A DNA stretch of 64,000 bases, taken from NCBI RefSeq assembly GCF_002797675.1, contig NZ_PGEX01000001.1, positions 1,054,001-1,118,000 on the forward strand. Direction: 5' to 3'. Each line of letters starts with the position of its first letter. Position 1 is the stretch's first letter. The notes below the pieces were generated by a model. It was not told where the DNA came from, did not search any database, and saw only the letters and a list, made by a program, of their open reading frames with translations. Below, piece after piece: positions 9,893 to 33,947 of the stretch. This DNA comes from Hallerella succinigenes (lineage in GTDB: Bacteria > Fibrobacterota > Fibrobacteria > Fibrobacterales > Fibrobacteraceae). A program made the translations under genes and the position numbers.

Positions 9893-10451
9893 CTTTCAAA
9901 TCGCCCTTTGCACAATCCGTAGCAAAGCGATAAAAGCCGACGGCGTCAGACAAATTACGCAAAACCACAAATCGCACTTTGCGCTCTTGTTCGATGAATT
10001 TACAGGCGGAACAAATAATTCCCGAACTAACGTTTTTTCTTTGGCAACAAGAAAAGGACGCAGGTCGCTGCAATTTATCACGCTGAGGCTCTGCATTGCC
10101 CATGTACGATAAATGCAAACGACCCACGTCCCAAAGCGGGCGACAGAAAACACAGCAAGTTTCGTATAGATTGCTTCTCCCCATTGGGGATAACAAGACT
10201 ACTGCAACAAGTTGCAGAGTCTTGTAAAGCCTTCGGCTCGCAATGACATGCGGAACGTTGCTGTTCTTGTCGAAATACGCCTAAACGAGCCGCATTGCTA
10301 CGGTTCGAAAATCGTATTTACGTGAGCGTTCGCCTTGTCCTCGTACATTGGAAATTTGCAGATTTCAGCGTGAGAACAAGAGCTAATAAACTCGATGCGC
10401 CCCGCATTTAAAATGCGGAGCTATGTCGGTAAGAATTTATAAATTTATCCT
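9893..10451. other. 559-bp gene-poor interval between the defence island and trmO
   Basis: No convincing gene. Two overlapping minus-strand frames (9852-10196 and 9896-10153) have low-complexity, Cys-rich translations without family resemblance, and I reject them. The interval should hold the helicase operon promoter. It also holds a REP-like element (10169-10248) and a perfect hairpin, CCGCATTT-A-AAATGCGG, at 10402-10418 in the probable trmO leader. Confidence 0.5.
10169..10248. repeat. REP-like element with internal hairpin, copy 1
   Basis: On the minus strand it reads TGTCATTGCGAG ... GAAGCAATC. Positions 10169-10231 match 33867-33929 almost base for base (63 bp). The core 10193-10225 folds as ACAAGACT-a-CTGCAAC against GTTGCAG-AGTCTTGT, a 15-bp stem with one bulged base. 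Beside it is the short palindrome CCCCATTGGGG. It is intergenic and non-coding. Confidence 0.75.
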
Positions 10452-19893: not shown

Positions 19894-19970
19894 GTCATGG
19901 CGAGCGAAGCTGTACGAAACTAGCCACTTCCGTGACTTAGTTGAGTTATTCTCTTCGAGGAGTAGCGATC
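19894..19970. repeat. REP-like element, diverged copy
   Basis: Begins GTCATGGCGAGCGAAG and ends AGTAGCGATC, diverged forms of the ends at 10169-10248. The interior has its own hairpin (AACTAGCCAC, loop TTCC, GTGACTTAGTT), so the end-hairpin-end layout is kept although the core sequence differs. It lies between the convergent transporter and xth genes. Confidence 0.45.
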
Positions 19971-31770: not shown

Positions 31771-31804
31771 AGCCATCGTGAGCCCCAAAGGGTCGAAGCA
31801 ATCC
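31771..31804. repeat. REP-like element, short copy
   Basis: AGCCATCGTGAGCCCCAAAG runs into GGTCGAAGCAATCC: the two REP ends joined by a small CCCCAAAGGG hairpin, without the long internal hairpin of the large copies. It lies right after the stop codon of the downstream tandem secreted paralogue. Confidence 0.5.
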
Positions 31805-31806
31805 AA

Positions 31807-32739
31807 TCACTTCAGCAGGAATTGCGCTCCATTTTCAAGTTTTAGAATCACCGGATGCGCTGGCGTGTTCACCACTCCCCCGCTTTTCAATTTTCCCGAT
31901 TTCAAAACCTTGCCGTTCAAATCAAAAAGCTGGAAAGACGTTTCGGAAGCAAGACCGGAAATCGAATATTGGGACGGCGAATTTTTAGAGACTTGAATCG
32001 AAGGGATGACATTTATTTTTGGTGTCGAAACGAAAGATCCGTCACAACTTCCATACGACCCGAACTTGGTTAACTTGAAACTGCCCGTAGCTGCGGAATC
32101 GCTCCAAAAAACAAGATGTACGGCGTTGTTATTTTGCAGTTCATCATACTTCGTTCCGGACAATTTAAATGTAAGATACCAAGAAAATTTTTCCCACGGA
32201 ACGTTTATAACGGTAAGCGAATCCGAAGCCGGTATGGTTGCATATAAATCTATAGTTTCTATGGAGAACCCGTATTCCTTCAACCGGATGTCAAAGCGCA
32301 TCGTAGAGGAATATTCCATGCAAAAGCCATTCCAAGCGGAAATGTCCACACTCTCTTGATCCCAATTCCAGGTGTTAAAACCGATGCCTACGCTATACCG
32401 CGAGCAACCGCCCCTCCCACTTGTGTCGACCTCAATCTGTTTTCCCAATATAAATTCTCCCACAATGCCTCCGTAAGCCCGCGTCAACGTCCCAAAGAAG
32501 TCTCCATAAATATCTTCTTTGACATCAGAAGGCCAGATCAAATCCGAATTTTCAACTTCAGTGCAATCGTCATACGAACCTTTGCCAAGTTCATACCAAT
32601 ACCCAGAACTTTCATCCGTTGATCCGGTTATCACACGGCCGGTTGTATCGACAGTAGCGTCCCAAAGAAATGTCGGATTCACTTCACGGGCATACAAAAC
32701 CGAACAGACAACAAACAAAGCGATCGCTACAAATTTCAT
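31807..32739 (-). CDS. Secreted carbohydrate-binding-like protein with sorting-type C-terminal domain
   Basis: 310 aa. Signal peptide (MKFVAIALFVVCSVLYA), then a beta-sandwich-like domain (about 25-215) resembling the CBM11/CBM30 type by its pattern: WDQESVDISAWNGFCMEY and VPWEKFSWYLTF, ending GSFKLTKFGSYG. The C-terminal 70 residues (ISGLASETSFQLFDLNGKVL ... GGVVNTPAHPVI) look like the tail domains of secreted Fibrobacter enzymes that direct surface sorting. There is no catalytic domain. A degenerate paralogue lies directly upstream. Binding to plant polysaccharide is inferred; the CBM family needs a profile search. Confidence 0.68.
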   Translation of the reverse strand: MKFVAIALFVVCSVLYAREVNPTFLWDATVDTTGRVITGSTDESSGYWYELGKGSYDDCTEVENSDLIWPSDVKEDIYGDFFGTLTRAYGGIVGEFILGKQIEVDTSGRGGCSRYSVGIGFNTWNWDQESVDISAWNGFCMEYSSTMRFDIRLKEYGFSIETIDLYATIPASDSLTVINVPWEKFSWYLTFKLSGTKYDELQNNNAVHLVFWSDSAATGSFKLTKFGSYGSCDGSFVSTPKINVIPSIQVSKNSPSQYSISGLASETSFQLFDLNGKVLKSGKLKSGGVVNTPAHPVILKLENGAQFLLK

Positions 32740-32786
32740 TTTTCCTCCATGCTAAAATGCGCAATGGCTGTTCCAAGTTTTTGACC

Positions 32787-32815
32787 GTGTCATCGCAAAC
32801 GAAGTGAAGCGATCG
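32787..32815. repeat. REP-like element, minimal copy
   Basis: GTGTCATCGCAAACGAAGTG followed by AAGCGATCG: the two REP ends with almost nothing between them. It lies immediately after the stop of the second tandem paralogue, as the copy at 31771-31804 does for the first. Confidence 0.5.
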
Positions 32816-32816
32816 A

Positions 32817-33723
32817 TTACTTCAGCAGGAATTGCGCTCCATTTTCAAGCCTCAAAATCGCCGGATGCGTCGGAGCATTCACCACTCCTCCGCTTTTCAA
32901 CGTTCCCGATTTCAAAACCTTGCCGTTCAAATCAAAAAGCAGGAAAGACGTTTCGGAAGCAAGGCCGGAAATCGAATATTGAGACGGCGAATTTTTAGAG
33001 ACTTGAATCAAAGGGATGACATTTATTTTTGGTGTCGAAACGAAAGATCCGTCACAACTTCCATACGACCCGAACTTGGTCAACTTGAAACTGCCACTGG
33101 TTCCAGGATCTCCCATAAAAACAAGTCTAACTGCAGAATTATATTGAAGAGCGTTCTTCTATTGTTGAGCGACGATTCGGTCCCCAAAGAGTAAATCTAA
33201 ACTTATCCCATGCGACATTTACAGTCACCAAAGAATCCGAGGCTTTCATCGAAGTGTAAATTTGCAAACACTCCTCGTCTTCATACAAACGTATTACAAA
33301 ATCCATGGATGCAAAATACTCAATACAAAAACCACCCCATGCCGAAATGTCCACCTTTTGAAAATCCATATCCCAAGGATTAAAAGCGATACCGATATAT
33401 GGTTGCTGTCCATCTTCCGGTGTAGATTCTTCGAGCCATTGCCCTATTACAAAATCACCTTGAATTGCTCCATAAGCTCTTGTCAAAGGGCCAAAAAAAT
33501 CTCCTGTCGAATCTGTTTTTACATCTGACGGGAAAATCCATCTAGAAGATCCCCCAGCCCATTCGTCTTCCAATACATGCCAATACCCAGAGCTTTCATC
33601 CGTTGATCCGGTTATCATACGGCCCGTTGTATCGATGGTAGCATCCCAAAGAAATGTAGGATTCACTTCACGGGCATACAAAACAGAAAAGGCAACAAAC
33701 AAAGCGATCGCTACAAACTTCAT
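32817..33723 (-). pseudogene. Frameshifted paralogue of the carbohydrate-binding-like secreted protein
   Basis: The first frame (33723-33139) gives a signal peptide and beta-sandwich (VDISAWGGFCIEY, VAWDKFRFTLWG), then runs out of frame and ends GPNRRSTIEERSSI. A second frame resumes with ALQYNSAVRLVFMGDPGTSG, aligning with DELQNNNAVHLVF of the neighbour, and ends at 32817 with the same tail domain. One single-base indel between about 33140 and 33185 explains this. The N-terminal 50 and C-terminal 85 residues are nearly identical to the neighbour, while the middle is strongly diverged, which suggests exchange at the ends or diversification of the binding domain. Confidence 0.75.
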
Positions 33724-33816
33724 TTTCCCTCCATGCTAAAATGCATACCTCACCGACCGTAACAAAATTATAAGTTGCTTTTTATAATATAGCACATTTA
33801 CCAGGGAAGACTCTAG

Positions 33817-33866: not shown

Positions 33867-33947
33867 GATTGCTTGTCCCCATTGGGGATAACAAGACTAC
33901 TGCAACAAGTTGCAGAGTCTTGTAAAGCCTATGCCCTCGCAATGACA
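33867..33947. repeat. REP-like element with internal hairpin, copy 2
   Basis: Near-identical to 10169-10231 over 63 bp, including the ACAAGACT-a-CTGCAAC / GTTGCAG-AGTCTTGT hairpin and CCCCATTGGGG. On the minus strand it starts GTCATTGCGAG and ends AAGCAATCC. It sits between the nuoN stop and the operon terminator, so it should be transcribed into the nuo 3' UTR, where it could stabilise the mRNA end. Confidence 0.78.

Follow-up and report, generated by a model that had tools for sequence, protein, structure and literature searches.

A gene-less 51-nt two-hairpin module nested in REP-like repeats of Hallerella succinigenes and related Fibrobacterota

Introduction

Transposons of the IS200/IS605 type insert seamlessly, carry imperfect subterminal hairpins and depend on single-strand chemistry. 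Some of the palindromic elements of Rickettsia lie inside genes, in frame. Several insertion sequences, namely IS1397, ISKpn1, IS621, ISPpu9 and ISRm22, use REPs as targets; the last of these inserts at the axis of the palindrome and its copies have direct repeats (PMC1525189). REPINs are small hairpin replicators that have no gene of their own, multiply within a genome, carry GTAG tags and are tied to a RAYT gene (PMC3116915, PMC2817692, PMC8266576). CGTC-tagged REPs are widespread and, according to those who described them, have no known transposase (PMC3733652). They bear a CGTC, TGTC or CCTC tag at one end and have a stem of 8-9 bp that starts with AT, a short loop of 4-5 nt and no dedicated transposase, and head-to-head dimers predominate among them; five phyla are listed for them, and RPE-4 and RPE-6 of Rickettsia are counted among them (PMC3733652). 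The word 'fibrobacter' has 0 occurrences in the main text of that paper, and the main text of a 2025 REP survey names no Fibrobacter (PMC12306157).

Here we analyzed REP-like repeats of Hallerella succinigenes in a window of 64,000 nt, that is, the whole stretch from position 1,054,001 to 1,118,000 of contig NZ_PGEX01000001.1. The genome is a single contig of 3.13 Mb. Coordinates are those of the window unless given in kb or with a genome handle, and ^ marks the joint at which a module is, or would be, located.

Results

CGTC-type REPs lie in the window at 10169..10247 (minus strand, GTCATTGCGAGCCGAAGGC...GAAGCAATC), 33867..33946 (minus strand, GTCATTGCGAGGGCATAGGC...CAAGCAATC) and 19894..19970 (plus strand, GTCATGGCGAGCGAAGC...GTAGCGATC). 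The first two have the tag TGTCAT and the third CGTCAT, with AT at the foot of the stem. As judged from sequence, these repeats, with ends of the form GTCATTGCGAG...GAAGCAATC, are in keeping with the known superfamily of CGTC-tagged REPs; they share with it the tag, the AT-starting stem and the lack of a dedicated transposase, and broadly also the short loop (PMC3733652). Stems of 8-9 bp with loops of 4-5 nt are present in the empty sites ATCCCCGC^GAAG and ATCCTCGC^GAAG, and the ATTGC/GCAAT stem of the window is shorter and imperfect. The repeats resemble REPINs as small gene-less hairpin replicators copying within a genome but, unlike the GTAG-tagged and RAYT-linked REPINs, have CGTC or TGTC tags, no GTAG or GGAG tag and no RAYT over the cut-off (PMC3116915, PMC2817692, PMC8266576).

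An earlier interpretation made from the letters alone, here called the sequence-only reading, had proposed a dispersed REP-like family with recurring ends, shared by at least five sites of the window. The dispersed family was borne out by genome-wide counts, with 21 occurrences of GTCATTGCGAG and 22 of the pattern TTGCGAGN{2,32}GCAATC and none for either reversed control pattern. When the latter pattern was applied to 167 Fibrobacterota genomes, 156 had matches; in many of these genomes the matches were few, at roughly the frequency seen with the reversed pattern. Within the window, the exact GTCATTGCGAG ends are found at 10169-10248 and 33867-33947, which have a 73-nt block of 93% identity in common, and are absent from two of the five sites, 31771..31804 and 32787..32815 (both plus strand). 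These two are weak, degenerate REP-like sequences without a module. At the looseness that the first one requires, the end motif is at chance level: allowing up to 2 mismatches, the window holds 24 occurrences against 21.3 expected, and 31 of 100 shuffles reached as many, so there is no enrichment. The second keeps the ATCGC/GCGAT pairing and precedes the second copy of a tandem duplication. Since the two sequences stand directly before the duplication copies 31806-32105 and 32816-33115, respectively, they may be one relic that was duplicated. The region 31806-33744 contains tandem paralogous genes with blocks of 90-92% identity (300 and 169 nt), each preceded by the degenerate REP-like sequence on the plus strand.

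Inside the three CGTC-type REPs lies a module of 51 nt of the form TATACGAnACT-hairpin-AGTnGAGTTAT-hairpin-A, with two hairpins and no gene. At 10169-10248 it occupies 10178..10228 (minus strand) between GGC and GAAGC; the covariance model R1, described below, matches 10173-10230 with 72 bits and an E-value of 2.9e-16, this copy being itself a seed sequence of the model. The module at 33876..33926 (minus strand; R1 match 33871-33928, 66.5 bits, E 9.2e-15) is the same in 51 of 51 nt. The identical 33-nt core noticed earlier in these two repeats does occur exactly twice in the genome, at 10169 and 33867; the core that they share is in fact 51 nt long. The site 19894-19970 had been thought to hold a different hairpin. 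It proved to contain a diverged copy of the same module at 19911..19961 (plus strand; R1 match 19909-19966, 70.7 bits, E 6.5e-16), one of the 14 seed sequences behind R1.

A core-free site in a sister species, a check suggested with the sequence-only reading, exists in G142. Its counterpart of 10169 (L426/L078) aligns over 402 nt with 96% identity and has a REP like that at 10169 from which exactly 51 nt are absent; the flanks are joined as GTCATTGCGAGCCGAAGGC^GAAGCAATC and there is no target duplication. The proposed non-autonomous behavior of the repeats is likewise supported. Two related repeats in G143 have no module and one in G140 has a different interior. The REP at 33867 has an orthologue in G142 (L057/L069) that keeps the same module. 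As this module is common to G142 and, minus one base, to the G143 copy L068, it is the older one. The bases that touch the module at 10169 are those of the recipient (CCGAAGGC, GAAGC, as in G142), unlike those at 33867 (GGCATAGGC, CAAGC). The identity of the two modules together with the retained recipient bases indicates that the module alone was copied while the donor stayed in place, and 33876-33926 is the probable donor. By parsimony over few genomes, the direction of the change would be gain rather than loss. The places orthologous to 19894 in G142, G143 and G144 are free of the module and are occupied by other REP-like sequences.

Eight further sites were queried, and a REP minus the module was found at two of them alone, L209 and L227, both in the sister genus. 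The L209 site is filled in G136, while G115, G104 and G066 have GTCATCCCCGC^GAAGGCGGG(G/A)ATC and G108 has no module and a changed loop; the alignment there covers 200 nt of the left flank and merely 16-39 nt of the right one. L227 is filled in G069, and G103 holds GTCATCCTCGC^GAAGGCGAGGATC. R1 found no module at E ≤ 1 in the tested empty loci. For L138, L211 and L228 the relatives were without the whole REP or had another REP, and L207 and L226 could be followed in most relatives by the left flank alone. L228 and its orthologues (L362-L367, L369, L371, L372, L378, L385 and L386) have differing REP types or none at one and the same place, which lies inside a gene reading like a NUDIX hydrolase; this part of a coding region is a hotspot at which REPs are exchanged.

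In the folded module, P1 is the top of the host stem, P2 a covarying stem with a 1x2 internal loop, and P3 a further stem. The core pattern of the right half gave 20 matches in 14 of the 167 genomes, in unrelated surroundings, and the reversed control gave 0. In an alignment of 14 sequences, which was made by sequence, was ungapped in 13 of the 14 and was the one on which the structure was chosen, 97.9% of cells form pairs, and changes on both sides are seen in 7 of 17 pairs. A larger alignment brought together 97 matches, 71 of them distinct, which came from the window and from 80 named loci; 95.9% of its cells pair, in a set fitted to R1, which favours the R1 structure, with some matches repeating seed sequences. 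Among the 71 distinct sequences, both sides change in 12 of the 17 pairs, and the covariation value is 0.429, compared with 0.123 for shuffled and at most 0.097 for slid controls. G-T cells (39, of which a single pair provides 26) outnumber A-C cells (9), which favours one folded strand. Part of the covariation may stem from hairpin-templated mutation and not from selection.

With R1 at E ≤ 0.05, E-values being rough, 89 of the 167 Fibrobacterota genomes were matched, with many different stems. These are all 6 genomes of the own genus, 77 of the 80 sister-genus genomes (rows counted) and 6 others, whose matches are mostly weak; for the two genera together, a hand sum of the table, in which up to 33 candidates per genome were scored, gives at least about 980 matches. 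A scan of named contigs returned at least 120 stretches with the module, and among the 80 matches listed most are from Fibrobacter. Three of these 80 (L264, L275 and L304) are short metagenome contigs labelled Omnitrophota, Bacteroidales and Paludibacteraceae, labels that probably reflect misbinning. At E ≤ 1 the source genome yields 23 matches, of which the strong ones amount to 10 loci; nine of these lie below 1.1 Mb (27-1088 kb) and one at 2508 kb. GC skew places the origin at ~1.29-1.45 Mb and the terminus at ~2.9-3.05 Mb; counted by hand on this basis, 6 of the 10 loci are on the lagging-strand template, which is no clear bias. Hairpins, strands and flanks were counted in a fixed 51-nt frame that tolerated up to 6, 3 or 4 mismatches, depending on the count, across 26 conserved positions; loci (short ones and weak matches) in which the expected offset held no module were left out. 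In such a frame, which under-counts length variants, the inner P2 hairpins are of 39 different kinds among 187 distinct module copies. Constant ends with exchangeable cores had been postulated for these repeats; the comparison of genomes shows the opposite, a constant module within varying ends.

The host sequences include GTCATTGCGAGCGAAGC^GAAGCAATC, GTCATCCCCGC^GAAGGCGGGGATC, GTCATCCTCGC^GTAGGCGAGGATC, GTCATCCTGAGC^...GAAGTCGAAGGATC, GGACGCC^GTAGGCGTCC and ACTTGAGC^GAAGCGAAAGTACA, and also GCACTTT^AGTGC, which is the loop in a related type of module; on the left side of the module there is no fixed tetranucleotide. The two flanks of a module pair better than re-paired flanks do: 127 distinct pairs had a mean of -8.86 versus -7.48 (sd 0.25; lowest of 100 re-pairings, -8.17). 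With tandem copies subtracted, 117 distinct flank pairs remained, and upon removal of the module the junction fell into the apical loop of a stem of at least 5 in 30 of them, whereas controls gave means of 5.5 (re-paired flanks, maximum 11) and 7.8 (shifted junctions, maximum 12). Hairpin tips are therefore favoured. In the other 87 pairs, the REP stem is degenerate, the context is a direct repeat (GACGAGA) or the hairpin stands next to the joint and not around it.

Modules also occur in tandem and within one another. Five lie in tandem with a 51-nt period and 99% match at about G000:211545-211799 (L064), where they are read through in an open frame as 17-residue repeats; the orthologous stretch in G144 has no tandem modules. 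The open frame at L064 has 699 residues and resembles a TonB-dependent receptor. At L093 in G140, two different modules follow each other in tandem, and the related place L220 holds a single one. Modules were found inside other modules and within the P2 loop of another type of module. This related type B has the form GGACAGC-ACT hairpin AGTGCGCATGG (L215, L399, L172 and L175), and the 51-nt module sits in its hairpin loop in several genomes (L106, L238, L266, L294, L339, L342 and L352). The carB-like fragments at G000:698140 and G000:701811 (L134 and L154) and at L106 carry larger composites of a left arm of ~65 nt and the module, and an uninterrupted carB-like stretch is located at G000:711959-712221. 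An in-frame insertion into carB was considered and rejected, because the 698-kb copy causes a frameshift and the carB-like stretches appear to be fragmentary.

We searched for a gene that could account for the spread. A RAYT transposase had been proposed as the mover, and the five Y1 matches of the source genome turned out to be four full IS200-type copies and one fragment. The RAYT model exceeded its curated cut-off in 7 of 167 genomes, all of other genera, and in no genome of the genus or the sister genus; the nearest miss was G140, with 73.5 bits versus a cut-off of 80, and G069, which has a filled site, gave no match to the model at E ≤ 0.001. The resident IS200 was rejected as the mover, its ends being unrelated to those of the module (the best short matches cover 8-13 nt, with E-values no better than 0.43). 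The best R1 match in the IS200 loci had an E-value of 0.37, and no REP ends flank the four full copies. Three of these (L045, L046 and L047) adjoin a further, two-ORF element resembling an IS3-type transposon, and at L048:1423-1700 a REP-like sequence, GTCATTGCAAG, directly follows a truncated IS200 transposase gene. Among the 1,128 ORFs of 148 module loci, no neighbour gene recurred in five or more loci. An autonomous parent was rejected after a search with half modules gave degenerate copies alone, and so was a phage origin, with 0 stretches in viral_contigs.

Discussion

The module has a conserved fold, sits in many host stems and is present or cleanly absent at three filled/empty sites. 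These findings turn the sequence-only reading round: what had appeared as an exchangeable core is the constant, separately mobile part. We consider it likely that two elements are nested here, an outer CGTC-tagged REP and an inner, gene-less module of 51 nt that spreads by itself. With one of its strands, the module would form a two-hairpin junction (P2 and P3); it would spread by copying, with exactly 51 nt pasted in and neither duplication nor loss at the target. Landing would often take place at the tip of an existing hairpin, in a REP loop at GC^GAAG or in that of a further module; at their ends, modules could stack in tandem. Seamless and exact ends in unrelated hosts argue that an enzyme or the fold sets these ends; since many unrelated hosts have the same ones, we infer that an enzyme acting in trans may define them, and the folded single strand is presumably the form that is recognised.

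The same observations could also arise from template switching or short-tract gene conversion, in which the loop of a different REP hairpin serves as template for a hairpin stalled during replication and the module travels as a passenger with no dedicated enzyme. We regard this as unlikely on balance, although it is the alternative that fares best. The modules sit in hairpins, many hosts share a left-hand GC and a right-hand GAAG, AGGC stands to the left of the module both in the 33867 donor and in the 10169 recipient, and neither an enzyme nor a linked gene was found. However, the right end at 10169 is without shared bases (donor A|CAAGC, recipient C|GAAGC) and the junction is exact all the same. 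Moreover, the module ends recur in unrelated stems, and differences of the donor REP were not carried over to 10169.

A transcribed regulatory RNA duplicated throughout the genome, such as a terminator, a riboswitch or a small-RNA site, would explain why the conserved junction and the covarying stems resemble a structured RNA and why most module copies lie at the 3' ends of genes. With ORFs called by a simple script, 108 module places were divided into 31 convergent, 39 codirectional, 10 divergent, 24 inside an ORF and 4 at an edge. Relative to the adjacent gene, however, 50 modules are in sense and 51 in antisense orientation, and such equal counts speak against a cis-acting RNA. Rfam gave 0 gathering-score matches in the whole window and 0 matches at E ≤ 1 around 10169, one further match being at chance level, and at 10169 the module alone moved. 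We therefore consider this explanation improbable.

Even less credit can be given to precise loss, that is, to a module that was ancestral in the REPs and was cleanly excised, for example as a hairpin during replication. A clean difference carries no direction in itself, and tandem units do vary in number, as between L093 and L220. Slippage between flanking GAAG repeats, however, would leave another joint, the module is absent at 10169 from G142 and two G143 repeats and at L209 from four relatives, and identical modules in different stems mean copying. The original model, in which REPs with variable interiors are moved whole by a RAYT, is the least credible and is refuted for the interior at 10169: whole REPs do come and go (L211 versus L387/L368; different REPs at L228), but no RAYT exceeds the cut-off in either genus, the interior is one conserved family within many different ends, and at 10169 it changed alone.

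The module has parallels among known elements. It shares seamless insertion, the lack of a target-site duplication, hairpins and a presumed single-strand chemistry with IS200/IS605 transposons and differs from them in having ends unrelated to the resident IS200 and no fixed left tetranucleotide. It resembles the REP-targeting IS elements in using a REP as insertion target; those elements carry a transposase gene, whereas the module has 51 nt, no gene and no target duplication (PMC1525189). Like the module, the palindromic elements of Rickettsia lie in frame within genes in some cases. They are counted among the elements of the CGTC kind (PMC3733652). Unlike in Rickettsia, the in-frame unit at L064 is the 51-nt (17-codon) module, present five times in tandem. 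No module in the REP loop is described for CGTC-tagged REPs in the available text of PMC3733652. Among the openly accessible papers listed for sequence-string, Fibrobacter-repeat and nested-hairpin topics, none was found to describe the module. The REPs are of a known kind, and the module is a small non-autonomous palindromic DNA for which we found no description.

Tentatively, the module might stand for a class of copy-paste DNA: a gene-less folded cassette that takes hairpin tips as its target, has no target duplication, terminal repeats or transposase of its own, nests in itself and in unrelated REP families, and would be served by a single-strand enzyme of Fibrobacter and its sister genus. 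The clean filled and empty sites, the likely donor and the constrained fold make the spread of gene-less hairpins testable. For these genomes, the module would add a second layer, small mobile hairpins for which REPs serve as landing pads, and its length of 17 codons means that it can enter reading frames.
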